Below are positions 36,901-64,000 of a stretch of 64,000 nt of DNA, one piece after another. The notes beneath the pieces were generated by a model. That model was not told the origin of the DNA and searched no databases. It saw only the letters and a list, made by a program, of their open reading frames with translations. The translations under genes and the position numbers were made by a program. Source of the stretch: Acrocarpospora catenulata (GTDB lineage: Bacteria; Actinomycetota; Actinomycetes; Streptosporangiales; Streptosporangiaceae); assembly GCF_018476525.1 (NCBI RefSeq), contig NZ_JAHCST010000010.1, positions 186,001 through 250,000 on the forward strand. The letters run 5' to 3'. The first letter of the stretch is position 1; each line of letters opens with the position of its first letter.

Positions 36901-36983
36901 GCGCGGTAGTGGGCTACCACGGTGGCGTCTTGCGAGACGGGTTGCCAGGAGGCTGTGCGGATGAACTCGTAACTGACGGGCAC
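33972..36983 (-). CDS. pPIWI-RE family protein (prokaryotic PIWI, R-E type)
   Basis: 1003 residues. GTG 36983 follows GAGGA. The protein has the family's N-terminal X region, a MID-like middle and an RNase H-fold PIWI module from about 560 to 940. The family is named for a conserved Arg and Glu in the PIWI domain; R754 in GQNARSHWTW and E877 in PGLVEIAVLG fit these positions. The ALPLPLHLAGLGQEYV end of the domain is also typical. A 60-residue acidic tail follows. Known pPIWI-RE proteins occur with a DinG-type helicase and a REase-fold protein and are predicted to target R-loops or invading DNA using nucleic-acid guides. All three partners are here, nine bases upstream and coupled. Assignment is by pattern, not by search. 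Confidence 0.82.
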   Translation of the reverse strand: MPVSYEFIRTASWQPVSQDATVVAHYRALRFPEAWREAILALCNLGRPDGAEPYRTVPTYRFEQVIQAFAPDLLVLPRPSEHWLYVPEEVADPLPGPVLRSLVDRWLGDLRPEPEHRAFLKDVRAELSTSPPVWERVEAELLRCPTTLGGGTAAPFEHQFPLSPDWLARRVLALGPYEHAAGRLHFRAVPRGPRDKGAELVSQPLPFPSGTRTWWYSVVLNITLHTVPFDPLPRFHLHFGIRRWATRVSSTTGKVRLPYRRKATVVLRPRVPYLPGAPLSERYALARMERRWDREKEEWTTDWVNGGPASILRGISLAETLPGADEILSSPEEWLEQGLRAGIVYSTAMGGHEVKAGLMSHQRSKLTEWAEQALPAELRATPALVRTRRSKSSKPLNAPPASVKKEDKPEESARRAAERRAGAAYAVSCLTPDADPETLPTLEARLLWQTRELREAGVSQLVEHLGLKGDGGAFTEAQYEAARPGDPVVLEWQCAELTVRLRCIKLTAGLGEGLSLPPKGTRRTSSAISAAVHDRRTNARSWLAQDITDKAPTLAVVELDRRADFETGDHDPKFALRLGFADAGAITQFATVPKKDGRYDSLKNLDHRVSMAWDDGLRQLGIRVHPTHSLGDKIPAGLRYAAVWLVRKNRTARNRWAAYVPIAVLVTPQDFGSGIARVQGWDPEANKWIPYPALLLKLTRLAEVSVADADNGGRGSYYRDMNEQRRNTEEWLQKMLRSLRGTPTLLLAHGQNARSHWTWLQDGRVEADRIRDGHALARRLHPDLRLVRVRTGRDRETAQWWGLNPKEEANGLPSHLWVPESGGVSRVFYSTTPKPAQFKTSAIEADKLAPRPRRAGERKGETTIDTNIPGWNPGLVEIAVLGCHKNDGDDPESLALAVHQLRQPPDYPQALALPLPLHLAGLGQEYVLPTLAEEVEDEATAVADLHSIDASVVSAGDGDPDPAMAAGLFTEQDPEEDHESTRVDGLPEPTPPMPHDYGRIPNR

Positions 36984-36992
36984 GGGTAGTCC

Positions 36993-43319: not shown

Positions 43320-43418
43320 GACTCCAGAGAACCGGAATGTGTGAACTAAGTCAAGCGAGTCTCTGTATTCTGTTGTGGAAACACCAAGGGTGTGATTGCC
43401 ACGCAATGGGGAGACGCA
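43320..43418. promoter_or_regulatory. Divergent promoter region between pPIWI-RE operon and kinase
   Basis: This 99-bp spacer must drive the operon leftward and the kinase rightward. It contains a short palindrome ACACC-AAG-GGTGT at 43381-43393. GGGGAG (43408-43413) is the likely ribosome binding site for the kinase. Confidence 0.45.
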
Positions 43419-46824: not shown

Positions 46825-46926
46825 GACTATCAAGCCCTTCCTGAAACCCGAGCCGCTCAGATCTCCATCGGGCCTGAGCAACTATGTTGACGCAGTTTTC
46901 ATCATACCCTTCGGTCATGGAAGTAA

Positions 46927-47219: not shown

Positions 47220-47232
47220 TTGACAATGTCAA
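47220..47232. promoter_or_regulatory. Perfect palindrome upstream of methyltransferase paralogue 2
   Basis: TTGAC-AAT-GTCAA, 47 bases before ATG 47280. It contains a consensus -35 hexamer TTGACA, so a bound protein would block a promoter there. The encoded protein has an N-terminal HTH and may be the binder. No ribosome binding site precedes the ATG. Confidence 0.5.
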
Positions 47233-47279
47233 TACACCCTACCTTGGGGGCCTTCAATCATCCGTGTACTGTTACATCC

Positions 47280-48905
47280 ATGAACGCCGATTCCCGGCCC
47301 GCCGCCGACACGCTCGTCCCGGCTACCGAGATCGCGAGATTGGCCGGAGTGACGAGAGCCGCGGTCTCCAACTGGCGAAAGCGATACCCCGACTTCCCCG
47401 CCCCAGTTGGCGGTGGTCCACGTAACGCGCTCTTCGCTCTCCCCGAGGTGCGGGCGTGGCTCGATCGGCATCATCGGGGTGGCGATGTCTCCGTCGAAGT
47501 ACAGCTCTGGCAGGCGCTACGCGGTGTGTACGGCGACGACATGATGCGCGGAATCGCCGATGTGACCGAGATGCTCTCCGGCGGAGCTGCTAACCGGCTG
47601 GACGCCAGGGTTGTAGCGATCGCGAAAGACCTGGCCGGGGAGAGTTCCCCTACGGAAGTCGTCGAGGCGCTAGTGGAAGGATTCGTCGATTCGGCGGGTC
47701 GGGTAGGTGCTGATCAGGTGACCTCCCCCCGCCTCGTCCGCGCGGTGCGACACTTCGCCGGCACGCCGAGTGGAACGATCTTTGATCCCGCCTGTGGCAT
47801 CGGATCGTTGCTCCTGTCATTCGAAGGCACCCCAGACGTCACCCTGGCGGGACAGGAAATGGACGCATCGGCCGTCAGGCTGGCGGGCCGATCCGGCGCG
47901 ACGATCAAAGAGGGCGACTCCCTGCGCGAGGACGGTTGGCCGGACCTTCGAGCTGAGCTGGTGGTCTGCGACCCGCCGGTAAACATGCCCGACTGGGGCC
48001 GGGACGACTTGCTGCTGGACGCCCGCTGGGAGTTCGGCGTTCCGCCCCGGGCCGAAAGCGAACTGACCTGGCTGCAGCACTGTTACGCGCATGTCGCTCC
48101 CGGCGGCCAAGCGATCGTCGTCATGCCCGCTTCAGCCGCCTACCGCAAAGCCGGACGCCGGATCCGCGCCGAACTCGTCCGACGGGGCATCCTTACCCAG
48201 GTCATCGGGTTGCCGCCGGGCATGGTGGCCTCTCATGCTCAGCCGGTACACCTATGGCTGCTAGCCCGCCCGGTCGCTACAGGCGCGGTTGGGTCCTCGG
48301 TTCGTATGGTCGACCTCACGGCATACGACCCTGAAGGTCCGTTCGACCTGCACCCGAAGCAGGTAGTGGACGTGCCGCTGATCGAACTCCTCGACGAAGC
48401 GGTGGACCTGACACCTGCGTACCATGTCGCGACCAGCCGCTCCGACCATCTCGTCGAATACCTGTCCGCACGAGAAGCCCTGTTGCGGCGGCTTGATGAG
48501 ATGCGGGACCTGCTCCCATCATTGGGGTCCGGACCCGGATCCCTCGAGGGAGCCGCCGTTCGGATCGCGGACCTAGCCCGCGCGGGTCTTGTGGATATCA
48601 GCACTGGTGTGGCTGTCTCGACCAGCGACCAGCTCGACACCGACTACCTGAACGGGTTCGCGCGCAGCACCGCCAACACACGGCGCTCGACGAGCGGTAG
48701 CGGCGGCTTCCGCACCGACCTGCGCAGCTCGCGGATTCCACAGATGGGCATCGAGGATCAGCGCCGGTACGGCGAGGCCTTCCGCACCATCGATGCGTTC
48801 GAACAGGCCACCGTGGATCTCACGACTTTGATCGAGCGAGCCGTCACGCTGGCCCGGGAAGGTCTCACCGGTGGTGCCCTGCGCCCGGGGGAGTCCTCTG
48901 AGTGA
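47280..48905 (+). CDS. HTH-N6-methyltransferase-like protein (paralogue 2)
   Basis: 541 residues. The N-terminal HTH is TEIARLAGVTRAAVSNWRKR. The methyltransferase core has motif I FDPACGIGSLLLS and a motif IV position reading CDPPV (Val instead of an aromatic residue). It aligns with paralogue 1 through the core, including DWG and AGRRIRAELVRRG, but is about 110 residues shorter because the central part of the C-terminal specificity region is missing. The tail resumes at GIEDQRRYGEAFRTI. ATG 47280 has no leader ribosome binding site, and a leaderless transcript is possible. Its last 41 bases overlap the helicase gene on the other strand. Confidence 0.8.
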   Translation: MNADSRPAADTLVPATEIARLAGVTRAAVSNWRKRYPDFPAPVGGGPRNALFALPEVRAWLDRHHRGGDVSVEVQLWQALRGVYGDDMMRGIADVTEMLSGGAANRLDARVVAIAKDLAGESSPTEVVEALVEGFVDSAGRVGADQVTSPRLVRAVRHFAGTPSGTIFDPACGIGSLLLSFEGTPDVTLAGQEMDASAVRLAGRSGATIKEGDSLREDGWPDLRAELVVCDPPVNMPDWGRDDLLLDARWEFGVPPRAESELTWLQHCYAHVAPGGQAIVVMPASAAYRKAGRRIRAELVRRGILTQVIGLPPGMVASHAQPVHLWLLARPVATGAVGSSVRMVDLTAYDPEGPFDLHPKQVVDVPLIELLDEAVDLTPAYHVATSRSDHLVEYLSAREALLRRLDEMRDLLPSLGSGPGSLEGAAVRIADLARAGLVDISTGVAVSTSDQLDTDYLNGFARSTANTRRSTSGSGGFRTDLRSSRIPQMGIEDQRRYGEAFRTIDAFEQATVDLTTLIERAVTLAREGLTGGALRPGESSE

Positions 48906-51024
48906 GGAACGGACTGGCCGTGCCGCTCCACGACACGTGCAGCGCCTCGCGCGCCCGAGTGCACGCGACGAAGAGCACGCACCGCTCCCGTAGCATGTCG
49001 CTCTCGTGCTGAATCTGGTCCACCTCCTCCGGCGTGACCTCCTTGGTGAACGGGAAGGCTCGAGCGGTCACCCCGGCTACCGCGACACAGCGGAACTCCA
49101 ACCCCTTCATCGCATGCATGCTCGCCAGCCGTACCCCGTCGGCATCAGAGCGGTCTTTCACCCGGACCGCAGTAATACCCGCGGCAGTCAGCCGGTCCGC
49201 GATCTTGTCCAACAGGACGTTGAACCGGGTGCACACTGCGATCTCGCTTGGCCATACCCCCTGCCCCAGCCACTGCTTCACCTGTACAACGACCGCTGAG
49301 ACCTCGTCCTGCTCTGAGGGATAACCGACTGCGGACGGCCGCTTGCCATGCAGCAGAGAGCGGTAACCGGACAGGCTGTCGGTGCCGCAGCCGCTGATGT
49401 CCTCGATAACCGCACCTTCGAGGACACCGGTCGCCCAGGTGAGGATCTCCTCGGTGCTTCGATAGTTGATCCGCAGGCGGGTGCTACGGCCCGCCACGGA
49501 GATGCCGAGGGCACTCAGCGACACCCGCGAGTCGTAGATCCGCTGATGCGGATCGCCCGTGATAAACAGGTCGTCCGGCCCTTCAGCCACTGCTGCCCGC
49601 AGCACCCGCCACTGTGCCGGATGCAGGTCCTGCGCCTCATCGACGACGACATGGTCGAAACCGTGGATGGCAAGATCGGCTCCAGCGAGGAGTTCAGCCG
49701 CTCGCGCGCACACCTGTAGGTGCGTGGTGGCGCCCGCTTTCTGGAGTTCCGCGGTGAAGGTCTCCATTGCCTGCCAGACGCGCTCACGTTGGCGTGGCCC
49801 GAGGGGTGTTCCCCGGCCGCGCCGGTTGACCTGCTGGTACGCCTCCAGATCGCGGGTCCGTTGGGCCAGGACGACGTGCCGGAACTCCTGGGCCAGGAAC
49901 TGCTCGGTCCAGGGCAGGGCCAGCAGGCGGCGTACCCTCCGCCAGATCTGCCGTTCGTCGGCGTCGCCCATCACCGCGGGAACCCGTCCGGCCAGGTCGC
50001 GCACCGTCCGGTGGGCGAAGGCGTCTACCGTGGTGACCTCCACTCGGGCGAGAAGCCGCTCATCGTCCAGGAGTTGAACGAGGTAGTCGCGCAGCATGCT
50101 GGCCAGGGCGTTGGTGTAGGTCGTCAGCAGCACCCGGCTGTCCGAAGACCGGGACAGCAGGTGCTTGACCCGGTGCAATGCCACCACCGTCTTACCTGTC
50201 CCAGGGCCGCCGGTGACCTGTACCGGGCCGTTATAGGAGACCCGGTAGGCGACCCGGCGCTGCGACGGGTGAAGGAACACCCGCCAGGCGGCGAACGGCT
50301 TGTCCAGGATGTCGGCGAGCTCATCCGGTCCAGTGATCAGGGTGATTCGGCTGGTCGTGTTGGCGATCGCCTGCGCCAGGCTCTCCGAAGGATCGTCGGG
50401 TGCGTCGGCCGGCCGCCGCTCAGCCACGATGTCCCGGTAAACTTCCTCTGGCGAGAAGCCCTCGGCCAGATACTGCAGGACCTCGAACTGGTCCTCGGGG
50501 AGCAGTGCGCCGAACGCCTCCAGCTGCTGCTTGTCGATAATCGTCCGTACGGCACGCAACACCTGGTCGTCGATGCCGAGGTCGCGCAGGACGGTGTTGG
50601 AGTGGGCGGCGAACAACAGGGCTGGCGCGTCGGCGGCGGCTCGCTCCAGCGCCGGGGTGAGCTGTTCGAGCGCGGCGACGTTCCGCACCTCCAGGGCACG
50701 TGTGGCGGTGTTCACCGTGTACAGGCGCTTCGCGGCCCAGGTGTAGGCGTCATCGTGCGGGACAACGTTCAGCAACAGGAAGGTGTCGCTGCCATCATCA
50801 GGGGCGAGCACGACACCGCGCCAGAAGTCGTTGATCCTGATGGTCCGCATCCGTGGATCGCGCGCCTTGTCCACCGACTCCAGGTGGAGGCCCTTATCGG
50901 CGTACAGCTCGGCGATCGTGAGCTGCTGGAACTTGGCCATGGCCTTGCGCACCCCGGCCTTGACGGGCTTGTCCAGGACGTCGTAGCTCTCCCAGAAGCT
51001 GTTGGCGAAGGCGAGCTGCGGCAC
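48865..51024 (-). CDS. UvrD/Rep-type helicase with RelE-like N-terminal domain
   Basis: 719 residues, GTG start with GGGGG upstream. Residues 1-100 resemble the RelE/ParE fold (RDPRMRTIRINDFWRGVVL, then VVPHDDAYTWA). The helicase has Walker A TGGPGTGKTVVAL (K278), VVDEAQDLHP, GDPHQRIYD, LRINYRSTEEIL, MHAMKGLEF and CTRAREAL, a full superfamily 1A set. Relatives with this N-terminus are found beside restriction and toxin genes. It follows the 1488-residue methyltransferase gene after 94 bases on the same strand and may be the last gene of that operon. A remnant of a second copy lies at 46927. Confidence 0.88.
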   Translation of the reverse strand: MPQLAFANSFWESYDVLDKPVKAGVRKAMAKFQQLTIAELYADKGLHLESVDKARDPRMRTIRINDFWRGVVLAPDDGSDTFLLLNVVPHDDAYTWAAKRLYTVNTATRALEVRNVAALEQLTPALERAAADAPALLFAAHSNTVLRDLGIDDQVLRAVRTIIDKQQLEAFGALLPEDQFEVLQYLAEGFSPEEVYRDIVAERRPADAPDDPSESLAQAIANTTSRITLITGPDELADILDKPFAAWRVFLHPSQRRVAYRVSYNGPVQVTGGPGTGKTVVALHRVKHLLSRSSDSRVLLTTYTNALASMLRDYLVQLLDDERLLARVEVTTVDAFAHRTVRDLAGRVPAVMGDADERQIWRRVRRLLALPWTEQFLAQEFRHVVLAQRTRDLEAYQQVNRRGRGTPLGPRQRERVWQAMETFTAELQKAGATTHLQVCARAAELLAGADLAIHGFDHVVVDEAQDLHPAQWRVLRAAVAEGPDDLFITGDPHQRIYDSRVSLSALGISVAGRSTRLRINYRSTEEILTWATGVLEGAVIEDISGCGTDSLSGYRSLLHGKRPSAVGYPSEQDEVSAVVVQVKQWLGQGVWPSEIAVCTRFNVLLDKIADRLTAAGITAVRVKDRSDADGVRLASMHAMKGLEFRCVAVAGVTARAFPFTKEVTPEEVDQIQHESDMLRERCVLFVACTRAREALHVSWSGTASPFLTQRTPPGAGHHR

Positions 51025-51118: not shown

Positions 51119-54100
51119 TCAACGTGATCCCCGCGGCCTGTGTGGGTTGAGGATGGCGCTGCCGCCCGACCACTGCGCCCCGCAGACATGACACCGTACG
51201 TGCCACTCCTCCCATCCATCCCGGAACTCCAACCGCCCCTCCTGGCCACTGCCCGGACAAAGGTCAGGGTCCGGCGTTGGCTCGGAGTCCTCTTCGAGCT
51301 CGCGCATTAGCTGGTCCTGGAAGTCCCGCCACTCTTTGGAACCGTTACGCGGACGCGTTTCCCGAACCGGATGCTCCTCAGCGACCTGGCCGTCCTCCGC
51401 TTCCGCTTTGAGCTGTTCGGTCCGGTCGGCTCCTTCGGGCAACGAATTCTCCGGCGCATCCACGACCCAGGCCGCCGGGCGTTCGGGGTGCCGGGGGCCG
51501 TGGCCGGGAGGCGGAGTAAGAGTTGAGGTGTAGTTTTTGCCATCGATGAGTGGAGCGGACAGGCTGACGCCGCTCCGATCCATACGGTCGTATTCGGCAA
51601 GGACGAGGTCCTTGGTGCGGTAGGTGCCGTACTTGGCGATCTCGTTGTGCTTCAGGCCTCCGGTCTCGGTCTGGAAGGACTCCAGGATGTAGTCGACATC
51701 TTCCCTGGCGATGCCGTAGAGGTGGAAGAAGTACGCGTCCAGCTCCGCGCGGATCTGAGTTCGACGGTCCTCGTCCCACTGGAAGGGCCCTCCGGAGTCG
51801 CTGAGGTCACGAGCCAGCCCGGTCATGTCGTACGCGGTGTAGACCAGTTCGAGAACGCGGGGCGTAAGGAATTCGGTGTGCGATTCGAGCGCTGCCGGGG
51901 TGGGAACAGGGAGCTGCTTCCAGGTCATGAGCGCCATGTGAATCCCGCCGATCTTCTGACGGCTCACGAAGTCGAAGACCAGAGAACTCTGAGTCGCGAT
52001 GAGTGCGGCGGCGAGCGGCGGTGTGACGCGCGGCAGCATGAGTGGAACGGTATGGCCGACTGCGGTGCGTGGAAGGAATGCTGGGATTGCCGTCCGCTCA
52101 TCTGTAGATCGGGCCACATCGCGCCAGCCGATGAGCCAGGTGCAATCCCAGTCAACTTCCTCCAGTCGAAGGGCGACGCCGGGTATTTCGACTTCCTTGC
52201 TCTTCCGGACGGTTGAGACAAGGCCCCCATCTGCGACCCAATAGCGGGGATAGGGAACAACGGTGGGATCCTGTTTCTCCTTTAGTTCTAGACGACGGTG
52301 GTCCGAATCACCATTATTGAAATAGGAGTTCCAGCGATGATCGAATTGGTGGATCATCTTTCCTTCATAGAGGGGTAGCGTCTGCTCCTCACCTCGGATG
52401 AAGACATTGCCATGTAGCTCCCAGCCGTCGGCCTCCAGTTCCTCCCGGGTCCGGAACAGGTCGGAGTCATCGGTCATGTTGAAGTGGTTCTTGAAGACGA
52501 TGCCCCATGGGTTGGCCCTTGTAGTCTCGTTCCACAGCACCGGGATCCGGCGGTGGATCGCCAGGGTGAGGTCGGCATCGCGCCGGGAACGGAAGATAGG
52601 CAGGGTCCCTGTATTGGGATTGATGAGGGTGATCTCTTCGGGGCTGAGAGCGAACGCCCGGCTGGAATCGTCCAGTTCGACGCTGTCCTCGAGGAAGAAG
52701 GCGAACTTCGCCGCCGGTTCGCGCAGCCCTCGGCCGGTCAGGGAGAGCAGGCAGAACTTGTAGCTCGAATGGACTCCGGGGAAAAGCTTCTTACGGTTTT
52801 CGAAGTCATACAGGGCCGCGATGGCGCCGCGGCTGGCGAGGCCGCTGAAGAGGTGCTGAGCTCCTGCCCCCGTCGCGATTGCCGTTGGAATGATGCAACC
52901 GACGCGCCCCTTGGGGGCAACGATGGCGGCGAACCTTTCGGTGAACAGTTGGTCGGTCTGGAGAGAGTTGACGCCCTTTACCGTCAGGCCCTTGCCGCAC
53001 CGCGGGTATGCTCCTGAACTTCCGGCGAACAGAAACGTCGACTTTACCTTGCGGCGCTCGGCATAGTACCTCTCGCCCGCCTCTGGGTTCTCCCGCGCCC
53101 ACTCGGCGATCCGGTTCCGGCGGTTCAACCCGGAGATCTCGGCAATGGACCGTTCGACCACGCTGAAATACTTCTTGTCCTCGAAGTCGACCTTGTCCCA
53201 TGGCGGGTTGCCCAGGACGCAGGAGAAGCCACCTGCCCAGCCCGTCTCGGGGTCCACGCCGGGGCCAGTGTCCTCGGGAACGGTGAAGACGTCGGGGAAC
53301 TCCAGGTGCCAGTGGAAGAATCGGTATTGGTCGCGGAGTCGGTCGATCTCTTGGAGGGTCCGCTCGGACGCGGCTGATGCGGTTGGGTCCTGGAGGGCGT
53401 GGAAGACCTCCTGGGTGATCGCGGGCGGTGCGTCCTTGGTCTTGTGCCACATGAACGCCGCGCACCAAGCGTCCGCGACGCGCTTGGTGTGAACGTAGTC
53501 AGCCGCGGCGGCCCACTCGCCGTAGGCGGCGGCCTGGCGCCGAACCTCGGTCAACAAGTCGGAGGGGGCGTCGGCGATTCTGCGCAGTCCAGCGGCGAAC
53601 GCGGTGTTGGCCACCTTCGGCTCGGCGCCGAGGTCGAACAGCCCGACCTGCCCGGCGCGCTCCTGCTCGTTCTGCTTTTCCAGGAACCTGGCGTAGGCCT
53701 CGTCGTCACCTTCAACGGCCTTGAACGCCTTGTTGGGGATACCCTCGCGGATCAACGCGGGCGTTGCGCCGATGAGGCCGTTTCCGTGCTTGATGTGCGC
53801 GTCGAGGAAGCTGAGCGCTTTGCCCGGCTCCATCGCCTCAAGCCACAGTGACACCTTGGCCAGTTCGACAGCCATCGGGTTGAGGTCCACGCCGTATACG
53901 CAACGGGCGATCACTTCGTGCAGCGCGTGCCGTACCGCATGCACGGGAGGTTCGGGGTTGCCTTCGCGGACGGCCGCGACGCGCTTGGCGATCCGGCGGG
54001 CGGCGGCGACGAGGAAGTGGCCCGAGCCGCAGGCGGGGTCGCAGATCGTCAGCGAGAGCAACTCGGCGACGATGTGCTCAGCAGGGCTCGGGACACCCTC

Positions 54101-55585
54101 CGCGGCGGCGCGCTGTTCACCGCGCTTTTGTGCGTCGTCGATGACCGGGTCGAGGGAGGAGTCGAGCAAGGTCTCGATCAGGGAGCTAGGTGTGTAGTAG
54201 GAACCCGTCTTCTTTCTGTCGTTGCCCAGGCGGCGGTCGACCAGCTCGAATGTGGTGTCGACTGCACTGTGCTGGGGAACCAGCTCAAGGAGTGACTCGT
54301 AGATCGAGCCGAGCTCCTCCGCTCCCATGTTGCGGTAGTCGGCGCGCCGCCAGCGGGACGCGTCTTCGTCCCAGACCCGGTCGAGGTGGCGGACGGCTCC
54401 CAGGAGGTGTGAGTTGGCCAGCGACAGACCGTGGAGTGGGGCGTCGGCATCGGTTTCGTCGAAGATGCCGCCCAGGCCACGTAGACCAAGCGGTGGATAC
54501 CCGTCTTCCTTGCCGAGAGCGTCCAAGATGATGCAGACAGCCCGGTACAGGTCACCATGGGAGGTGCCGCGGCGGCGGCTCGCGTGTCGGCGTAGCCGAG
54601 AGGAGGAGAAGTACTCCTTGAACCGCCGGCGGGTCTCCGCATCGGTTTCCGGCGGGTGGAGCAGGTCGCGGTCCTCGATCACGAACAGGAAGAGCAGCCG
54701 GTAGACCAGCCGGAGCAGCGCCGCGTGGAACGTGTGAACATCAATGGTCTTGCGCAGCTTGTCGTTGGCGGGGTGCCGAAGGAAGCCCGTGCCGAGTTCG
54801 GTGATGGCCTTCTGGACGCCTTCGCGGTAGGCCTCGAGCGCCCGAGCGCCGGATGCGATCGCCTCGGTCCGCCACTTCTCGAGCCAGCACGCCGACGGCG
54901 CTTCGCCTTCGTCGATGCGGAAGCGGGTCACGTGCAGCAGCCGATACAGCAGGACGAATTCGCTGAACAGCTCACCGTCGAAGATGGCCTCCAGATCGAA
55001 TTCCACGTAGGAGGCCGTGGCCAGGGCGCTGGAGTCGCGCAGCAGGCGCAGGCGGCGCCCGTTGGTGAGGACGCCCCACAGCAGGGCTTCGGTCCGGTTC
55101 AGACACTCCTGGACCAGCGACTGTGGAGGAACGGTGCCCGTGCCGACAGGCCGTCTGTCCAGGTCGGCGTTCCAGGCGGCGAGGTGGACGGGGACGTGGT
55201 TCCATCGGTGGCTGATCGCGAAGGGTTTGCCGCCGTCGTCGTCGGCGATGCCCGCCGGGCCGACCGCAGGCAGTTCGCCGAAGCCCAGCTCGGCGAAGAG
55301 TGGTTCGAGCCACTGCGAGATCGCCAGGCCCGTCGGGTCGGCCGGGGTCACGGCCTCGGGGACGCGCGGCAGCTTGAGCCGCAGCTCAGCCCAGACCGAC
55401 TTGAGGTAGTCCCAGTGGCGTTCGGCGTCGTCGCGGACCGAGCGGGAGCCGATCACCTTGTAGTCGGCGGGCCGTGAGCCTTTGACGTCCTTGCCCTCGG
55501 AGATGCGGGTCAGCATGTCGGCGGGCAGCAGGCCCCCGACGGTGTGGACGGCGGAGAAGACCTGGTTGCGGGCGACGGCGGACAT
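51119..55585 (-). CDS. Large Eco57I-type N6-adenine DNA methyltransferase
   Basis: 1488 residues, ATG 55585 overlapping the stop of the SNF2 gene (TGATG). The helical N-terminal region (1-450) lacks a clear PD-(D/E)XK motif. The core has GSYYTP (461-466), motif I DPACGSGHFL (516-525) and motif IV LGNPPWD (NPPW 793-796). A specificity-like region follows to about 1330. The tail is acidic, with a CxxC pair (RCHVCGAQW) near the end. Length and partner (SNF2 helicase) recall DrmMI of class 1 DISARM, PglX of BREX and DISARM-like systems. It probably marks self DNA by N6-adenine methylation. Confidence 0.88.
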   Translation of the reverse strand: MSAVARNQVFSAVHTVGGLLPADMLTRISEGKDVKGSRPADYKVIGSRSVRDDAERHWDYLKSVWAELRLKLPRVPEAVTPADPTGLAISQWLEPLFAELGFGELPAVGPAGIADDDGGKPFAISHRWNHVPVHLAAWNADLDRRPVGTGTVPPQSLVQECLNRTEALLWGVLTNGRRLRLLRDSSALATASYVEFDLEAIFDGELFSEFVLLYRLLHVTRFRIDEGEAPSACWLEKWRTEAIASGARALEAYREGVQKAITELGTGFLRHPANDKLRKTIDVHTFHAALLRLVYRLLFLFVIEDRDLLHPPETDAETRRRFKEYFSSSRLRRHASRRRGTSHGDLYRAVCIILDALGKEDGYPPLGLRGLGGIFDETDADAPLHGLSLANSHLLGAVRHLDRVWDEDASRWRRADYRNMGAEELGSIYESLLELVPQHSAVDTTFELVDRRLGNDRKKTGSYYTPSSLIETLLDSSLDPVIDDAQKRGEQRAAAEGVPSPAEHIVAELLSLTICDPACGSGHFLVAAARRIAKRVAAVREGNPEPPVHAVRHALHEVIARCVYGVDLNPMAVELAKVSLWLEAMEPGKALSFLDAHIKHGNGLIGATPALIREGIPNKAFKAVEGDDEAYARFLEKQNEQERAGQVGLFDLGAEPKVANTAFAAGLRRIADAPSDLLTEVRRQAAAYGEWAAAADYVHTKRVADAWCAAFMWHKTKDAPPAITQEVFHALQDPTASAASERTLQEIDRLRDQYRFFHWHLEFPDVFTVPEDTGPGVDPETGWAGGFSCVLGNPPWDKVDFEDKKYFSVVERSIAEISGLNRRNRIAEWARENPEAGERYYAERRKVKSTFLFAGSSGAYPRCGKGLTVKGVNSLQTDQLFTERFAAIVAPKGRVGCIIPTAIATGAGAQHLFSGLASRGAIAALYDFENRKKLFPGVHSSYKFCLLSLTGRGLREPAAKFAFFLEDSVELDDSSRAFALSPEEITLINPNTGTLPIFRSRRDADLTLAIHRRIPVLWNETTRANPWGIVFKNHFNMTDDSDLFRTREELEADGWELHGNVFIRGEEQTLPLYEGKMIHQFDHRWNSYFNNGDSDHRRLELKEKQDPTVVPYPRYWVADGGLVSTVRKSKEVEIPGVALRLEEVDWDCTWLIGWRDVARSTDERTAIPAFLPRTAVGHTVPLMLPRVTPPLAAALIATQSSLVFDFVSRQKIGGIHMALMTWKQLPVPTPAALESHTEFLTPRVLELVYTAYDMTGLARDLSDSGGPFQWDEDRRTQIRAELDAYFFHLYGIAREDVDYILESFQTETGGLKHNEIAKYGTYRTKDLVLAEYDRMDRSGVSLSAPLIDGKNYTSTLTPPPGHGPRHPERPAAWVVDAPENSLPEGADRTEQLKAEAEDGQVAEEHPVRETRPRNGSKEWRDFQDQLMRELEEDSEPTPDPDLCPGSGQEGRLEFRDGWEEWHVRCHVCGAQWSGGSAILNPHRPRGSR

Positions 55586-58500
55586 CAGGCGTTCCCTCCG
55601 GCGGCAGAGTCCGAGACAGGCAGGTAGACGTAGGTGCCGAGGATGTCGGCGGGTTTGTGGGTGACGACGTCCAAGCCTCGGACGATCTCGCCGGAGGCGC
55701 TGCGGACCCGGCGGTGGGAGTCGAGCAGCTCGGCGCGCAGCCGCTCGCCGTACTCCTCCAGATGCCCGGCGGTAGCGGGCAGTCCGTCGAGGACGCGGGC
55801 CATGGTGCGCTCGCCGAAGACGCGGTCGATGTTGTCGTCGGCGGTCGCGTCCAGCAGCTTCAGCGCCTCCACGGGCGGCAGCCAGACGGCGTTCGCAGGG
55901 GAGCCTTGGAAGGCGAGCAGGCGGGCGTCCTCGGCGACGAGCTCGCGAGTGCCGGAGCGGGAGGGCAGCGTGAGGTGGAAGCGGTAGCGGACCAGTAGCA
56001 GTGTGGTGCGAGTGGCGACGGCCTTGGTGCTGATGACTCCGCAGCGGCTGGCCGGGCGTTCCCTGCCGGGCTGCTCATGCCGACCGTCCAGGGCGACGCC
56101 CAGGACGTAAGAGGCGAGAGCGCCCACCACCGGATCGGTGCGGACCAGGGCGGCCTCGCCACGGGCGACCGCAGGTTGCCTGCGGAACGGGACCGGCTGG
56201 CCCTTTTCCACGGCCTCGCCTCCGACCACGGGGGCCAGCGCGTCGCGCAGTCCGGCGGGAGTGCCGCTCACGTCCACCGTGAAGCCGCCGTCCGGCTCGT
56301 CGCGGACGATGCCGTCGAGGGAAGCCAGCGCCTGCCGTACGAAGGCGCGGACCTCACCGGACCGGCCCAGGGTGTCGCGAATCGCGGCGACCTCGCGGGC
56401 GACCTCTTGGGGGTGGATCGAGCGTTGGGCGAACCGGGAGCGGGAGGTTTTCTCGCGTTCGGCGGCGGAGTTCCACTCTGTCTCCAATTCGACCGCCTTG
56501 CCGCTGATCTCGTCGAAGCTGAACAGCGCCTCCTGCTGGCGGTTCTGCCCGCGCAGCAACAGCCACTCGACGATCGCGTCGGTCACCCGGGTGGAGGCGG
56601 CGTCCGGGACGGATACGGAGATCCCCAGGTCTTTTTGGATCTGGCGATGTTTCCTGATCAGGACCTCGAGAACCTTGCCGTCGATGCCGTTGTCTCCGCC
56701 GTAGAGAGTGACGACCTTGACGATGTCCTTCTTCTGGCCGTATCGGTCGACGCGCCCCTCGCGTTGGTCGTGCCGGGTGGGATTCCAGGCCAGGTCGTAG
56801 TGGACGACGGCGTCGAAATGGTGCTGGAGGTTGACGCCCTCCGACAGGCAGTCGGTGGCGATCAGAACGCGGCGGGCGCTCTCATCGTCACCGGCTTCCT
56901 CGGCCAGTTCCTCGATGCGCTGAATACGCTGCTGCGGGGACAGCGTGCCGGTGACAGCGCGGATCACAGTCCTTCTACCGAGCTTGCCCTCCAGATGCTC
57001 GGCTATGTATTCGGCGGTAGGGATGTAGCGGCAGAAGACGATCGGGTGGTAGCCGGTCTTCAGCAGGTCCTTCAGATGCTCGATCAAGGCCGCCAGCTTG
57101 CGGTCATCCGCCGTCCCTTCCAAGGCATGGGCACGATCGGCCAACTCCGCCAAGCGGGTGCCCGCGTCCTCGATCTCAGCGCCGGGGGCGACGTCGAGGC
57201 CTTCCATGACGTCGCTGTCGTAGGCGTCGCTGGTAAGTGGCGCGCCCAGGATGTCGGCTTCCTCGGCGGTTGCGGCGGCAGCGGCGGCTGAGCGGGTGCG
57301 CAGGGTTTGGGCGGCGGCGCGCGGTGAGGAGACCATCGAGCGCAGCAGTGCGATCGCCGACCACCAGGCGATCCGGGCCTCACGCTTACCGCGGTCGCCC
57401 GCGGCGCTTACACGTTCGCCCGCATATGCGATGGCGTCGTCGAGCAGGGCACGGTAGGCAGGAGAGAGCTTGTAGGTCTCGTCCTTGAAATAGCGGTCGG
57501 AGGGGAATGCGGTGGCCTCGGCCAGGCTGTTGTCGGCGAGGCCGTCGTTGACTGTGAGGAATTGGCGCACGTCCGCCCGCTTGCGTTGGACGAAGTGCTG
57601 GGCCAGGAGCCGGCGGTCCGCCTCTGAGTCGAGTTCGAGCTCGGCGAGCTCCGGCCGGACCAGGCCGAGGAGATTGCGGAAGGCGCTCTCCTTGCCGCTG
57701 TGCGGGGTGGCGGTCACCAGCAGGAGGTGGCGGTCGGCTGCGGGATCGGCGATGCGCTGGAGGAGCCCGTAGCGGAGCTGGTTCTGCCTGGAGGTGCTGT
57801 CGTCGGCGGCCACGCAGGTGTGGGCCTCGTCCACGATGACCAGGTCGGGGCAGTGCCTGACGAAGTCGTCGCGGTGACGGGTGGACTTGATGAAGTCCGT
57901 GGAGACGATCACGTTCGGATGCTTGTCGAACAGAGACTGCCCCAGGTCCAGGCCACGCTCCAGCTTGGAAACGGTCGAGGCCAAGACCAGCTCGGCGTCG
58001 ATGCCGAACTTCGTGCGCAGTTCCTCCTGCCATTGCTCGGCCAGCGCGGGTGAGCACAGTACGGCGAGTTTTCGCGCGCTGCCCTGGGCCAGCAGTTCAG
58101 CGGCGATGAGGCCTGCCTCGACGGTCTTGCCGATGCCGACGTCGTCGGAGATCAGCATGCGGACGGTCCGTTGCCGAAGTGCCATCATCAGCGGGACGAG
58201 TTGGTAAGCGCGAGGCTCCACGGCGATTCCGGCCAGCGACCGGAACGGGCCGGCCCCGGAGCGGAAACCGACGCGCAGCGCCGTGCGGAGCAGTCCCGCG
58301 GCCAGCGAATCGCCCAGGTCGGCGGGTGAAGGTGGCGCGAATTCCGCGCTGTGGACCTCCTCGAACGCCGGGAAGACGGCGGCGATATCGTCGTCCGCGC
58401 CGCCCAGCGGGCGCAGCACGAGCATGTCGGGGGCGCTTTCGGGGAGCACCACCCACTCCCGGCCGCGAGCGGAGACCAGGGAGCCGGCCGTGTAGGTCAT
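55585..58500 (-). CDS. SNF2/RapA-like superfamily 2 helicase (DrmD-like)
   Basis: 971 residues, ATG 58500 one base into the upstream stop (TGATG), so tightly coupled. Walker A region DDVGIGKTVEAGLI (K125), DEAH box VDEAHTC (224-227), LVTATPHSGK, then the second RecA domain with VLIATDCLSEGVNLQHHF and NPTRHDQREGRVDRYGQ. This is the layout of RapA/DrmD-type translocases. In class 1 DISARM such a helicase is encoded next to the methyltransferase gene, as here. It should use ATP to translocate on duplex DNA and may displace or load the partner proteins. Confidence 0.9.
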   Translation of the reverse strand: MTYTAGSLVSARGREWVVLPESAPDMLVLRPLGGADDDIAAVFPAFEEVHSAEFAPPSPADLGDSLAAGLLRTALRVGFRSGAGPFRSLAGIAVEPRAYQLVPLMMALRQRTVRMLISDDVGIGKTVEAGLIAAELLAQGSARKLAVLCSPALAEQWQEELRTKFGIDAELVLASTVSKLERGLDLGQSLFDKHPNVIVSTDFIKSTRHRDDFVRHCPDLVIVDEAHTCVAADDSTSRQNQLRYGLLQRIADPAADRHLLLVTATPHSGKESAFRNLLGLVRPELAELELDSEADRRLLAQHFVQRKRADVRQFLTVNDGLADNSLAEATAFPSDRYFKDETYKLSPAYRALLDDAIAYAGERVSAAGDRGKREARIAWWSAIALLRSMVSSPRAAAQTLRTRSAAAAAATAEEADILGAPLTSDAYDSDVMEGLDVAPGAEIEDAGTRLAELADRAHALEGTADDRKLAALIEHLKDLLKTGYHPIVFCRYIPTAEYIAEHLEGKLGRRTVIRAVTGTLSPQQRIQRIEELAEEAGDDESARRVLIATDCLSEGVNLQHHFDAVVHYDLAWNPTRHDQREGRVDRYGQKKDIVKVVTLYGGDNGIDGKVLEVLIRKHRQIQKDLGISVSVPDAASTRVTDAIVEWLLLRGQNRQQEALFSFDEISGKAVELETEWNSAAEREKTSRSRFAQRSIHPQEVAREVAAIRDTLGRSGEVRAFVRQALASLDGIVRDEPDGGFTVDVSGTPAGLRDALAPVVGGEAVEKGQPVPFRRQPAVARGEAALVRTDPVVGALASYVLGVALDGRHEQPGRERPASRCGVISTKAVATRTTLLLVRYRFHLTLPSRSGTRELVAEDARLLAFQGSPANAVWLPPVEALKLLDATADDNIDRVFGERTMARVLDGLPATAGHLEEYGERLRAELLDSHRRVRSASGEIVRGLDVVTHKPADILGTYVYLPVSDSAAGGNA

Positions 58501-61500
58501 CAGACGTTTCCTCGTGTCGCGGTGCCGAAGTAGCGGCTGAACTGGGTGGCGATGGCGGACCAGTCGCCGTCGTACGGGAAGCGGACCACGTCCCAGCCTT
58601 GGTCGTACAGCCGTTCTTCGGCGTCGCGATCGCGCTCGGCGACGACCGCGTGGTCGTGGACTGGGCCGTCGACGAAGACCGCGACCTTGACACCGGGCAG
58701 TCGGTAGACGTAGTCGGGGCGAGCCAGCGCTTCGGTGACGAAGGTCTGCGCCTCATCCGGCAGCCGCAAACCCTGCTCCTTTAGCCAGGCGACGAGCCTA
58801 CCCTCAAGAGCGGTGTCCGACTGCGCGGTCAATCGTGCCAACTGCTCGGTGCGGGTCTCTCCTCGGCCGGTGGCCAGAGCCGCGCCAGCGGCGAAGCGCA
58901 GCAGCGGTTCACGAACCGAGTGGCGGTCGATCGCGGCGTGGTTGTGCTGGTTGCCGTAGGTCAGCAGGCATTCGTAGCAGCCCAGCGCGCAAGGCCGATC
59001 GGGATGCGGGCCGAGCAGGTCGGTGCCGTCCGGGGCGAAGTGACAGATCAAGAGGGCCTCGGCGGCGGCTCGGGCCAGCGCGTCCGGCTCGGACTGCATC
59101 CGCCGGAGCACGCCCGCGCCGCCCTCGGCGGCCTCAGTGAACAGCATCCGATCGCGTGGACCCTCGTCCGGCGGCAGCAGTTCGCTGGTCAGCTCGGCGT
59201 CTTCCAGTTCGAAGGCGGCCTCGATGCCACGCTCCAGCGCATACATCAGCGACAGGGCCGCCGGTTTGTCCAGCGGTTCGTCGAGCTTCAGCACCAGGAT
59301 GTTGCGGGTGTCTTGAACGTAAGGAATGACCCGCTTGCGGCGGCGCTTCTCGTTGCCCTCGCCGTCGATGACGGGCATCTCGCCGGAGTCGCCTGACGCC
59401 TCCCCGGCCTCCCGCTCGTTCATCCAGCGCCCGTCCGCGGGGTCGAGCCAGAAGCCATCCGGCTCGCCCTCCTTGGCCCGGATCCGGCCCATGTTGGAGA
59501 TGCGGACGGTGGCCGAGTCGCCGAACGACAGGGTGGCGAATTGTCCGGCCGGGTCCGTGAGAACGGCGTCCCGGCGGCCGGGGCGCTTCCCGTGGTCATG
59601 GAAGCGGTAGGAGGTGACGAGGCGGAAGCCCGCGCGGCGCCGCTCCTCCTCATCGGAGGAGATCCGTTCGCGTCGCTTGGTGTAGACGGTGTGCAGCTGG
59701 AGCAGATTCGAGGTGATGTCGTTCAGCGGCTCGTCACACATCTGGCATCGATCGGCGCGCTCCTGCGCGTCGTGGTGGTAACCGCATGCCGCGCACCGCT
59801 TGGCGGTCGTGGTGACCACGTCGCCGGTGGCGTCCGGCGGCAGCTGAATGCGGGTGACCTGGTAACGGGCTCCCTCGTGGTAGATGAGTGCACCGGGCCC
59901 GAATTCGCGGATCGCCAGGAAGCGGGGCCGCTGCACGTAATCGCCGTTGCCGTGCCGCCGTCCGGTGGTGGGGATGTAGGCGGCCAGCGGCAACCGGGGG
60001 AAGGAGTAGCCGGGGAGGAAGCCCTCGCTGGCCAGGTAGCGGTAGGGGTTGAAGTCGCTCAGCAAGGAGCGGCTGTCGTCGCTCTCGTTCTTCAGCAGGT
60101 CGAGCTGGGTCTCGGCCTCCTTACGGCGGCCGACGGCGAGTTTCCGGTCCCGTTCGGTGAGCGTGTGATCCAGGACGCGCCGGTTCTGCTCGGCCTGGTC
60201 GACGAGGGCCGCCCGGAACAGGCCGCGCCACCGGTTCAGCGCCTGATCGAATTCCTCCGGAGCCTTGCGCACCGACTCCTCGATCCACTGTTCGTGCCAC
60301 CAGGTGGTGTCGGCGAACTCGGCCAGCAATTCGCCGAAGACCTGCTGCGCCGCCGCGACCGCACTCCGCTGCGCCGCGGCATCCCGCAGCTTGGCGACGA
60401 CGTCACTGTGCAACGGCAGCTCGGGGTCGGGGTAGCGGGCGTCCTCCTCGTAGCTGATGTCGATGATGTGCGGGATGGCGCTGCCCAGTTTCAGCTTCGA
60501 TTCCGCCAGCCAGATGGCCTGCACGTGAGATCGGACCAGGTCTTCGTTGCACAGGTCGAGCTTCGGCGGGGCGACCACGCCCGCGACCATTCGGTCGGAG
60601 CGCCGGAAGTAGTACTGGTCGTGGCTGTTGCCGGTGGCGCAGTAGGTGGTGACCAAGGCGGGCTGCCCGGATCGGCCGGCCCGGCCGCTGCGCTGCGCGT
60701 AGTTGGCCGGGGTGGGCGGCACGTTGCGCATCATGACCGCGTTGAGTTCCGCGATGTCGACACCGAGTTCCATGGTCGGCGAGCAGTACAGCAGTTTCAG
60801 CTCGGCTTTCGCGAACGCCTTCTCACGCCGTTGCCGCTCCTCAGGGGGGACCTGAGCGGTGTGCTCACGGGCCACCAGTCCGGCCAGCGCGTCGGCGGTG
60901 TCGCGGTAGAGGTCGCGGAAGAACGCGTTGACGCGAGGGCCTTGCCCGCTGGCGTAGGTCCTGGTCAGCGGGTCATGGCCGGCGGTTTCTCCGGTGCCGG
61001 CCCGCCAGATCAGGCATGCCGCCGAGATCTGGTAACCCGTGACGGCAGGGCTGGACGGTCCCCGGAACCGGCCGGTGCGCTGCGGTGCCGCGGAGGTCTT
61101 GCTGAGCAGCCCGGCCTTGGTGAGCACCTCGAGCAGGTTGACGATGATCAGCTGAAGATCGTCGGTGGGCAGCTTGGGGAAATGAACCCGTTTGAGATAC
61201 TTGCCGAACTTTCCGCGTCCGGAGAGGAACAGACCCGAGCGATCCATGCCGGGCCGCGACCCCTGCGGGTACGCGATCCCGACCTTGGGTTTGTCGCTCG
61301 ACGACAGCACCCATGGGTCGACCAGTCGCTCCTCGCTGGCGCGCTGCAGGGTGTCGAAGTCGTCACGGAAGTACTGCACGTCGATGGCCAGGCCGCGGCG
61401 CATCTCGTCGAGCAGCGCCCGCATGATCTCCGCGCGGCGACCGGGTTCGGCATCGCGCAACACGATGTGGGCGTTGATCTCGGGATCGGACCAGCGTTCC

Positions 61501-64000
61501 TCCTGGCCGGCCAGCCAGTCCAGATCTTCGTAGTCGATCTTGAGGAGGCCGGTCTGCTCCAGGTTGGGCATGGTGACCCGCCATCCGCGCTCAAGGTCCA
61601 TGTAGAGCCTGAAGGCGATGACATCCCGCAGAGTCTTGGCGGCGTTGCGGGTCAGCGACGGCGGCAGGTCTGCGACCCCGGTGTAGTCGGCCGGGGAAAG
61701 CCCCAGCGCGTCGGAAACGCGGGAAGCCAGCACCTCGTGATTGAGACCTTCCTCGCCCGCGTCGGAGACCGCCTGGTACAGCGCGCTGCGTAGCTGGGTG
61801 ACCTGCGCGAAGTCGTTGAAATGCCCGGCCTGCAGCGAGGCGTCCTGCCGGTTGTCGACGAAGGTGAGGAGCTTACGGGCCTCCGCCTTCAGGGCCTCGG
61901 GCGGCGCCTCCTTCAGCGAACGGACGATGGAAGCCGACACGAGTGAGGTCGCCGACGAACGGCCCTCCTGGTCAAGCCGGGCCAGTTTGGCGAAGTCCTT
62001 CCCCCTGACCTGCTCGTAGCTGACTCCGCAGTGGAGGCAGAACAGGAACGGTGAGGGGATGAAGGCCACCATCAACTCGCCGCGGTCCTGCATGCCATAC
62101 GGATCGACCCGGACGAGGCTCGGCACGCGGGACCGATAGGTGGAGCGGACAGTCTCGTTGCCCTGATCATCGCTCTCCAGCCAGGAGTCGGGCAAACGTC
62201 GCTCGGCAATCGCCTGCTCCATGTTGGGCGGCCAGGAACGGCTGGTGCTGACGTAGAGGTAACCGTCACCGGCGCGGCCGCCGGTGGCGGCGGTGTCGGG
62301 ACGTGGGCCGTAGGTTGTGACCCCGTTCTTCTCCTCACGCCACACCGTCAGATACTCCTGGCCGCAGTCACGGCAGAAGGCCAGCGGCAACAGCAGCTTG
62401 CCGTCCGAGCCGGGTTGAACGCGCTGGTAGTCGCGAGTCAGGTAGCGGGACTGCTCGTCTTCCAGCGTCACGTAGACGGTGTCGCCCTTGGACAGGAACT
62501 GGTGCAGCCGGAAGGCGAACAGAGGCCGGTCGGTGACCGGGTGGCGGGCCTCCGAACCGGCCTTCAGCGTGTCGCGAATAGCCTCGCCGCAGCTCTGCTC
62601 GTCGAGTCCGCTGCTCGTGGCCAGTTCCCGGGCCGCTTCCTCGATCTTGGCGGGCTTCTGCCGAACAAGCCGTCCCGTCTCGTCCGGCACGAGACCGAAA
62701 CGCGCCTCGATCCAGCGGGCCAGCGGATCAGACACCAGATCGGCGTACGCGCGCGGCGAGCGAGGCAGGCGGAGCCGCTCGGCCGGGACCACCGTCGGCG
62801 GCTCACCGGTAGCGCGTACCAGCGTCTCACCGATGACGTGTTCCGAGCGCACCTCGGTGCCGAAGAGGGTGGAGGCCACGCCGGCCACGGCTTCCCGCTG
62901 CCGCGCGAAGGTGCCTTCGCTGGACATGGTCGCCGAGGTGCCCACGCACTGGAGGTTCTCCGCCCGGCACGCCTCGCGGACACGGCGGATGAGCAACGCC
63001 ACATCAGCGCCTTGACGGCCGCGGTAGGTGTGGAGCTCGTCGAAGACGAGGAACTCCAGGCCGGCCGCCATCTTGATGAGGGAGCGGCGCTCCTCCGGAC
63101 GGGTGAGCATCAGCTCCAGCATCACGTAGTTGGTGAGCAGGATGTCCGGCGGGTTGTCGCGGATGACCTTGCGGTCATCATCGCTCTCCTGGCCGGTGTA
63201 GCGGGCGTAGGTGACCGGTTCGCGGCCCGCGCCGTAGCCGTCGGTGAGGTACTTCTTGAGCTCTTCGCGCTGACTGTTGGCCAGGGCGTTCATCGGATAC
63301 ACGATGATCGCGCGAACCCGCCTCGGAGCCCTCGGCCCCTCCTGCTCGCGGTCCTTGAGCACCTTGTCGACGATCGGCACGATGTAGGCGAGAGACTTAC
63401 CCGAGCCGGTGCCGGTGGTGAGGACGTAGGACTCACCGGACTGAGCCGTCTTGACCGCCTCGAGCTGGTGCTGATGGAGAGTCAGCGGGCGGCCGTCACA
63501 CACGGTGCCGTCCTTGGTCTTGCCCGCTTGGAAGATGCGCGCGCACTCCTCGTGCAGGATCCCGTCCTTGACCAGTTCCAGGACGGTACCGCCGGAAGCG
63601 AAGAAGGGGTTCAGCGACAGCCAGGGATCGGGCCACTGGGACTTGGCGTCTAAGTCGTCCTCGACGAAGCCCTTGATCCGGTCGTCACGGATGATCGTGC
63701 CACCCTCGGTGAAGGCCCGGTAGTCCTCGATGAGCTTGCGGTGCACGCCGAAGACGTCCATGCCGGACCCGACCGCGCGGAGCAGAGGGGCAGGGATGGC
63801 GGGCGGTTCTACAGGAGCGGACCCAAGGTGGCGCACCGGGTCGAAGTCGTCCCATCCAGAGAGGTCGACGCCACCGGTAGCGAGTGGCAGCAGCGCTTCG
63901 CGGACGATGACGGCGTCCTCGGGACGGTCAGCAGGCTCCTTTGCCAGCAACCGCTGAACGAGCCGGGCCAGATCGTCGGGGACCTCGGGGCGGATCAGCC
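58500..64000 (-). CDS. Kinase-DEAD helicase-DUF1998-nuclease fusion (5' end outside window)
   Basis: At least 1832 residues; the frame is open to the right edge. The first visible residues read LIRPEVPDDLARLVQRLLAK followed by EPADRPEDA, the end of a Hanks-kinase C-lobe including its conserved Arg. About 60 residues later a DUF1998-helicase N-terminal region begins (DVFGVHRKLIEDYRAF, WPDPWLSLNPFF). Then come Walker A TGTGSGKSLAY, VFDELHTYRG, TMELGVDIAELN and QRSGRAGRSG. Zinc motifs follow (CAACGYHHDAQERADRCQMC, CALGCYECLLTYGNQ). The last 110 residues look like a Vsr/DUF559-type endonuclease (ARPDYVYRLPGVKVAVFVDG). No stop or start separates these parts. It is the first visible gene of the coupled SNF2-methyltransferase operon. 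The kinase body must be checked beyond the edge. Confidence 0.82.
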   Translation of the reverse strand, partial: LIRPEVPDDLARLVQRLLAKEPADRPEDAVIVREALLPLATGGVDLSGWDDFDPVRHLGSAPVEPPAIPAPLLRAVGSGMDVFGVHRKLIEDYRAFTEGGTIIRDDRIKGFVEDDLDAKSQWPDPWLSLNPFFASGGTVLELVKDGILHEECARIFQAGKTKDGTVCDGRPLTLHQHQLEAVKTAQSGESYVLTTGTGSGKSLAYIVPIVDKVLKDREQEGPRAPRRVRAIIVYPMNALANSQREELKKYLTDGYGAGREPVTYARYTGQESDDDRKVIRDNPPDILLTNYVMLELMLTRPEERRSLIKMAAGLEFLVFDELHTYRGRQGADVALLIRRVREACRAENLQCVGTSATMSSEGTFARQREAVAGVASTLFGTEVRSEHVIGETLVRATGEPPTVVPAERLRLPRSPRAYADLVSDPLARWIEARFGLVPDETGRLVRQKPAKIEEAARELATSSGLDEQSCGEAIRDTLKAGSEARHPVTDRPLFAFRLHQFLSKGDTVYVTLEDEQSRYLTRDYQRVQPGSDGKLLLPLAFCRDCGQEYLTVWREEKNGVTTYGPRPDTAATGGRAGDGYLYVSTSRSWPPNMEQAIAERRLPDSWLESDDQGNETVRSTYRSRVPSLVRVDPYGMQDRGELMVAFIPSPFLFCLHCGVSYEQVRGKDFAKLARLDQEGRSSATSLVSASIVRSLKEAPPEALKAEARKLLTFVDNRQDASLQAGHFNDFAQVTQLRSALYQAVSDAGEEGLNHEVLASRVSDALGLSPADYTGVADLPPSLTRNAAKTLRDVIAFRLYMDLERGWRVTMPNLEQTGLLKIDYEDLDWLAGQEERWSDPEINAHIVLRDAEPGRRAEIMRALLDEMRRGLAIDVQYFRDDFDTLQRASEERLVDPWVLSSSDKPKVGIAYPQGSRPGMDRSGLFLSGRGKFGKYLKRVHFPKLPTDDLQLIIVNLLEVLTKAGLLSKTSAAPQRTGRFRGPSSPAVTGYQISAACLIWRAGTGETAGHDPLTRTYASGQGPRVNAFFRDLYRDTADALAGLVAREHTAQVPPEERQRREKAFAKAELKLLYCSPTMELGVDIAELNAVMMRNVPPTPANYAQRSGRAGRSGQPALVTTYCATGNSHDQYYFRRSDRMVAGVVAPPKLDLCNEDLVRSHVQAIWLAESKLKLGSAIPHIIDISYEEDARYPDPELPLHSDVVAKLRDAAAQRSAVAAAQQVFGELLAEFADTTWWHEQWIEESVRKAPEEFDQALNRWRGLFRAALVDQAEQNRRVLDHTLTERDRKLAVGRRKEAETQLDLLKNESDDSRSLLSDFNPYRYLASEGFLPGYSFPRLPLAAYIPTTGRRHGNGDYVQRPRFLAIREFGPGALIYHEGARYQVTRIQLPPDATGDVVTTTAKRCAACGYHHDAQERADRCQMCDEPLNDITSNLLQLHTVYTKRRERISSDEEERRRAGFRLVTSYRFHDHGKRPGRRDAVLTDPAGQFATLSFGDSATVRISNMGRIRAKEGEPDGFWLDPADGRWMNEREAGEASGDSGEMPVIDGEGNEKRRRKRVIPYVQDTRNILVLKLDEPLDKPAALSLMYALERGIEAAFELEDAELTSELLPPDEGPRDRMLFTEAAEGGAGVLRRMQSEPDALARAAAEALLICHFAPDGTDLLGPHPDRPCALGCYECLLTYGNQHNHAAIDRHSVREPLLRFAAGAALATGRGETRTEQLARLTAQSDTALEGRLVAWLKEQGLRLPDEAQTFVTEALARPDYVYRLPGVKVAVFVDGPVHDHAVVAERDRDAEERLYDQGWDVVRFPYDGDWSAIATQFSRYFGTATRGNV

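Follow-up and report, generated by a model that had tools for sequence, protein, structure and literature searches.

At the right edge of the analysed window, a stretch of 64,000 nucleotides corresponding to bases 186001–250000 of contig C2 in a 10.3 Mb genome, a minus-strand frame (58500–64000) starts within what resembles the end of a protein kinase domain and runs on into a helicase. The locus raises the question of whether a kinase, a helicase and a nuclease are truly joined in one protein, to which system such a protein belongs, and what the kinase might contribute to it.

The frame was open at the window edge, and contig C2 ends at base 252867, 2867 bp past the window. Beyond the edge the frame continued free of stops for 797 bp, up to a frame start at L003:10797, giving 2098 codons. 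A GTG codon at L003:10737, about 736–737 bp past the window, was taken as the likelier start, with GAGGAG, read directly, 5 bases upstream of it; the product would then comprise 2078 aa. The sequence-only reading had seen a kinase C-lobe continuing into the helicase and had named a stop/start or a frame break just past position 64000 as a refuting result. None was found, and the kinase N-lobe lies in the same frame, with the VAVK, HRD and DFG motifs looked for to the right as well as GKGNMGEV, HRDLKPSN and APE.

From N to C terminus, the single frame encodes a PknB-like Ser/Thr kinase, a flexible linker, a DEAD/Helicase_C helicase, an MZB (DUF1998) domain and a Vsr-like PD-(D/E)XK tail. These parts are located as follows:

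58500..64000, minus strand: in-window part of the kinase–ArmC fusion gene, residues 267–2098 (ORF list, extended frame, Pfam; for the ArmC assignment, see below)
L003:10000-10725, past the window: remaining kinase, residues 25–266, with VAVK K64, HRD D166, DFG D184 and APE E215
63888..63998, minus strand: C-terminal end of the kinase domain, residues 267–303 (frame, Pfam, alignment)
63762..63887, minus strand: linker, residues 304–345 (low conservation, predicted disorder)
62919..63473, minus strand: RecA1/DEAD, residues 442–626, with Walker A GTGSGKS and DELH (Pfam, alignment)
60666..60881, minus strand: RecA2/Helicase_C, residues 1306–1377 (Pfam)
58965..59249, minus strand: MZB/DUF1998 zinc-binding domain, residues 1850–1944 (Pfam, alignment, model)
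58524..58814, minus strand: Vsr-like PD-(D/E)XK tail, residues 1995–2091, with the putative active site D2028, D2043 and H2047 (AlphaFold2 model, alignment)

Matches above the Pfam cut-offs were obtained for PF00069 (145 bits, residues 32–293), DEAD (PF00270, 93 bits, residues 442–626), Helicase_C (PF00271, 47 bits, residues 1306–1377) and MZB (PF09369, 34 bits, residues 1850–1944). Within MZB, Cys1936, 1940 and 1943 were invariant and Cys1918 was present in 83 of 85 relatives. The cysteine pairs 808/811 and 920/923 were also invariant and would fit a zinc module.

Kinase-less ArmC proteins begin at the residue equivalent to Met346 of the fusion, and an internal start at this position might yield a separate ArmC. 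This was unsupported, as a Shine-Dalgarno-like motif was absent at the Met346 codon in 75 of 81 fused genes; the kinase start carried one in 55 of 84. Of the 80 best loci from a species-level scan of 84,980 species, 77 had the same uninterrupted fusion, which rules out an artefact of assembly or frame. That the kinase and helicase are made separately, or that the fusion is such an artefact, was accordingly rated highly improbable. The earlier proposal that kinase, DUF1998 helicase and Vsr-like nuclease are joined directly proved correct, and the arrangement is conserved.

The domain searches suggested in the sequence-only reading had thus succeeded for the kinase, DEAD and DUF1998 parts; they failed for the tail, where no Pfam family matched over the last 100 residues. 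Comparison of the tail sequence with solved structures returned a single match, which was not useful (E 0.2). Residues 1700–2098 were modelled by AlphaFold2 from 48 sequences, and folds were compared by VIA-align. The tail was modelled confidently (block mean pLDDT 84–96, model residues 291–390) and resembled the catalytic domain of I-Bth0305I (3r3p; Z 9.3, 89 of 97 residues, rmsd 2.8) best, followed by other PD-(D/E)XK nucleases, in agreement with the predicted Vsr-like nature of the tail. The DUF1998 part of the same model (model residues 15–270) matched MrfA (6znp, Z 12.2). Judging from the family pattern, D2028, D2043 and H2047, all of which are present in this protein, are putative catalytic residues.

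Regarding the system, the fusion protein is almost certainly the ArmC of an ARMADA Type I operon (order C-A-B, here with ArmD) extended by an N-terminal PknB-type kinase. The helicase–nuclease body is known; the kinase alone is new. Bell et al. 2025 (PMC12458937) described ARMADA Type I as a YprA helicase with a Vsr-type tail (ArmC) in first position, followed by ArmA and ArmB; its ArmC carries a BrxA-like insert after RecA1 and, in RecA2, a zinc beta-barrel insert. The earlier suspicion of an architecture not known from a named system consequently failed for the helicase–nuclease half. It stood for the kinase: the article text of PMC12458937 never uses the word "kinase", and no description of a kinase–YprA fusion was found in the literature searched, which covered the texts of openly accessible papers.

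Likeness to ARMADA Type I was observed at three levels, namely RecA1, RecA2, DUF1998/MZB and a C-terminal Vsr-type nuclease in one protein; the order ArmC, ArmA (SNF2/BrxHII-like), ArmB (PglX-like), which is the same in relatives; and the nesting of the fused clade among kinase-less Type I ArmC proteins (SH-aLRT 100). The locus differs from Type I in its complete N-terminal Hanks-type kinase and in the additional ArmD. With ARMADA Type II, represented by the E. coli plasmid NZ_CP091840.1 (L130), it shares an ArmD with a RelE-like N-terminus (PMC12458937) and a UvrD helicase, and homologous ArmA, ArmB and ArmC. However, Type II has the order A-B-C-D and no kinase, whereas the order here is C-A-B-D, and the ArmC tree places the two types on different branches.

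Other defence systems were compared in the same manner. BREX Type 2 PglW and kinase-bearing DndF likewise place a Ser/Thr kinase inside a large multidomain DNA-targeting defence protein (PMC12839542), but PglW consists of NERD nuclease, pseudokinase, kinase, wHTH and iSTAND parts and has no YprA helicase. Assignment to BREX-2 was ruled out, since PglZ (PF08665) had no match anywhere in the genome. DISARM and Dpd have SNF2 helicase and methyltransferase types in common with this locus, and PADLOC also reported DrmD and DrmMI; in DISARM, however, DrmA and DrmB are separate genes, while helicase and DUF1998 are fused here in one frame of 2098 codons, which excludes that assignment.

The PADLOC model PDLC02853, named DpdE, matched ArmA (55585–58500) over its full length with 1679 bits. 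A Dpd system was nevertheless ruled out, because no DpdA-type TGT domain (PF01702) was found in the 98%-complete genome, the same search being positive in 14 of 14 control genomes. Automatic annotation may therefore label an ARMADA locus as Dpd.

Druantia DruE combines a related YprA helicase with a C-terminal nuclease, and the top PADLOC match of the fusion was DruE3 (357 bits); this match was of partial length only, and DruE has other Druantia genes as partners and no kinase. By sequence, the closest structures to ArmC were large, recently solved YprA-family helicases (PDB 9tu7 and 9wae series, 2108 and 1970 aa). A second YprA-family helicase system was noted in the same island, a Druantia-like set at window positions 24403–32431 on the minus strand (PADLOC: DruE4 2112 bits, DruF4 269 bits, DruL4 76 bits).

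Downstream of the fusion gene, ArmA and ArmB each overlap their predecessor by a few bases, and the UvrD gene (ArmD) follows after about 95 bp. The neighbouring genes are:

55585..58500, minus strand: ArmA, SNF2/RapA-like helicase, overlapping the stop codon of the fusion gene
51119..55585, minus strand: ArmB, PglX-like Eco57I-type adenine methyltransferase, overlapping the stop codon of ArmA
48865..51024, minus strand: ArmD, RelE-like N-terminal domain and GajB-like UvrD helicase
47220..48905, plus strand: HTH and N6-adenine methyltransferase, convergent with ArmD and recurring beside kinase-ARMADA loci
44866..46881, minus strand: second HTH and N6-adenine methyltransferase, weakly matching Type I specificity subunits and likewise recurrent beside such loci

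ArmA and ArmB followed the fused gene in every relative whose contig extends far enough. ArmD was 33% identical to E. coli Type II ArmD over 99%, and the aligned N-terminal domains share the invariant residues R69, H90, D91 and Y94. It was also present in eight further kinase-bearing loci (L005, L033, L041, L058, L060, L073, L087 and L111) and, in L045 and L046, lies next to Type I genes without the kinase. McrB–McrC genes (NCBIfam) lie between ArmB and ArmD in L033, with the same order in L005 and L041. In about 15 Streptomyces loci, DISARM DrmA and DrmB were located divergently upstream of kinase-ARMADA (e.g., L085:1679-6648).

Several further genes were noted around the operon. Upstream of the fusion, a transposase-like sequence apparently interrupts a DNA methyltransferase gene (L003:11404-12400, by eye). 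The window also contains a complete three-gene pPIWI-RE set (PprPIWI, PprDinG, PprRE; 33972–41748, minus strand; Pfam, PADLOC), a related set being found near the fused locus L042, and a transposase-like ORF (32614–33471, minus strand, by eye) between the Druantia-like and pPIWI-RE genes. A second Hanks-type kinase stands beside a PD-(D/E)XK (PDDEXK_1) nuclease and the HTH methyltransferases (43392–44879, plus strand, and 41703–43157, minus strand), and a Type ISP/IIG restriction enzyme–methyltransferase (Type_ISP_C) was located at 19549–22962 on the plus strand.

The fused kinase is of the Hanks Ser/Thr type and is predicted to be active, as its catalytic residue set is complete. In the alignment of kinase-bearing sequences, K64 (85/85), D166 (86/86), D184 (85/85) and E215 (85/85) were present without exception. 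The closest solved kinase structures were those of mycobacterial PknB (E 2e-45), relative to which the activation loop is free of gaps between the TxT and APE motifs; Thr200 (85 of 85) and Thr202 (70 of 85) align with the PknB TxT. PknB autophosphorylates the TxT of its activation loop.

For 11 close pairs, dN/dS amounted to 0.05–0.24 in the kinase, 0.08–0.19 in ArmC and 0.15–1.07 in the linker, where computable. By these ratios the kinase is under purifying selection and evidently maintained. The linker was the least conserved part, with 31% identity over residues 304–343 compared to 66% in the kinase and 69–86% in the helicase segments. In a structure model of a close relative, the linker had very low pLDDT, and the two-domain model reached a pTM of 0.49. 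On account of this poor conservation, low pLDDT and pTM, the modelling suggests two folded bodies joined by a tether.

A gating role of the kinase may be proposed on this basis. ArmC would load onto foreign DNA, as related YprA-family helicase–nucleases do, and several copies assembling on the DNA would bring their tethered kinases together, raising the local concentration. The crowded kinases would trans-phosphorylate their activation loops at Thr200 and Thr202 and, once activated, could phosphorylate partners in reach, i.e., ArmA, ArmB, ArmD or ArmC itself, which would license the ARMADA complex for attack. The assembly step is extrapolated from DruE, a related helicase–nuclease of a different subfamily, which loads on 3' ssDNA and builds oligomers competent for nuclease action (PMC13192584). 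In E. coli ARMADA Type II, all four genes are required for defence, and the helicase and methyltransferase motifs matter (PMC12458937).

The phage assays in that study concerned E. coli Type II systems only. Phage defence by the kinase-bearing variant, DNA-dependent activation of its kinase and the candidate substrates are inferred. Gating by crowding on foreign DNA was held tentatively, at somewhat below an even chance, and the ArmC identity and the gating mechanism taken jointly were placed slightly above it. The coupling of phospho-signalling to DNA sensing in one protein, as first imagined, appears plausible.

The cleavage that had been added to this coupling was weakened by the variation of the putative active site. 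Among 85 kinase-bearing relatives, D2028 was kept in 84 and D2043 in 83, but H2047 in only 36, the histidine being deleted in the other 49, mostly Streptomyces-type; yet this putative catalytic His is present in the protein studied here. The same loss was seen in kinase-less Type I loci (L047–L049), and it is therefore not tied to the kinase.

These counts bear on an effector role of the kinase, in which ArmC would sense foreign DNA and the kinase would phosphorylate host or phage proteins, halting growth or phage replication, with the tail nuclease secondary or lost. The missing His2047 in nearly exclusively Streptomyces-type relatives that keep all catalytic residues of the kinase is in line with such a role, as are the backup effector function proposed for the kinase in BREX-2 PglW (PMC12839542) and known kinase-based phage defence such as KKP (PMC11341870). 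However, the nuclease site is intact here, kinase-less loci lose the histidine as well, and the tested E. coli ARMADA Type II acts directly and non-abortively (PMC12458937). The effector role was considered the main rival, less likely than gating. The same probability was assigned to a DNA-sensing kinase, whereby the helicase would detect foreign DNA, the attached kinase would be the main output, and nuclease-eroded lineages would defend by phosphorylation and not by DNA cutting. Gating was retained as the preferred role.

The distribution of the fusion was determined in several samples. In the species-level scan, its hosts belonged to 20 named actinobacterial genera, with one short contig labelled Melainabacteria that is possibly misbinned. 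Among 100 relatives searched, the full fusion was found in 9 genomes, the genome itself included. ArmC of this kind occurred in 26 of 297 genomes sampled evenly across the class, with a fused-length frame (at least 2088 codons) in 11 of the 26, a frame too short for the kinase in 13 and fragments in 2. On plasmids, 52 records matched most of the query; among the best 40 of these 52, only the one from Streptomyces sp. BHT-5-2 covered the kinase, and the others began at residues 296–347, without it.

The ArmC tree comprised 56 sequences, with types assigned by gene order, the reference sequences of PMC12458937 absent and some branches long. All fused proteins and three kinase-less ones formed one clade in it, inside actinobacterial Type I (SH-aLRT 100). 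In the kinase tree, a branch (99/97) separated the fused kinases from eight standalone kinases. Read from these phylogenies, the kinase was acquired a single time within actinobacterial Type I and lost once. In two kinase-ARMADA loci (L087:6287-7228 and L111:4831-5763), a standalone kinase of about 310 aa, 41–43% identical to the fused one, separates ArmD from the HTH methyltransferase.

The only certain loss, as judged from the sequences, is L126, since the other two kinase-less members of the clade (L107 and L120) stop at contig edges. Nested in the fused clade, L126 starts at the equivalent of the ArmC Met and is preceded by an adenylosuccinate-lyase-like gene, not by a kinase. It belongs to Streptomyces sp. 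AC1-42W, which also has a fused copy (L102). Because its ArmC–ArmA–ArmB set is intact, the kinase appears dispensable.

Such a lineage is compatible with the loss of a brake, i.e., with a kinase that would hold the helicase–nuclease inactive on self DNA, or tie it to the host PknB network, until relieved during infection. Actinobacteria possess large kinase networks, the fused kinase is PknB-like, and a helicase–nuclease operon needs restraint. On the other hand, the expected safeguard between self and non-self is the methyltransferase ArmB, and kinase-less Type I systems are common. No FHA or PP2C/phosphatase gene was found as a conserved partner around the kinase-ARMADA loci compared, and contig C2 carries no FHA or PP2C gene, the genome's own copies being located on other contigs. 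A brake was rated as rather improbable, below the effector role, and gating remains the reading followed here.

The maintenance of the fusion in dozens of species suggests that ARMADA is controlled or executed partly by protein phosphorylation. ARMADA was described only in 2025, and no counterpart is known in it of DruH, the probable sensor that Type III Druantia encodes separately; a maintained kinase fused to the helicase represents a concrete, mutable handle on its activation. Fused ArmC is widespread among actinobacteria, many of which produce antibiotics, and a natural kinase-less relative together with many nuclease-eroded ones would help to ask which activity matters.
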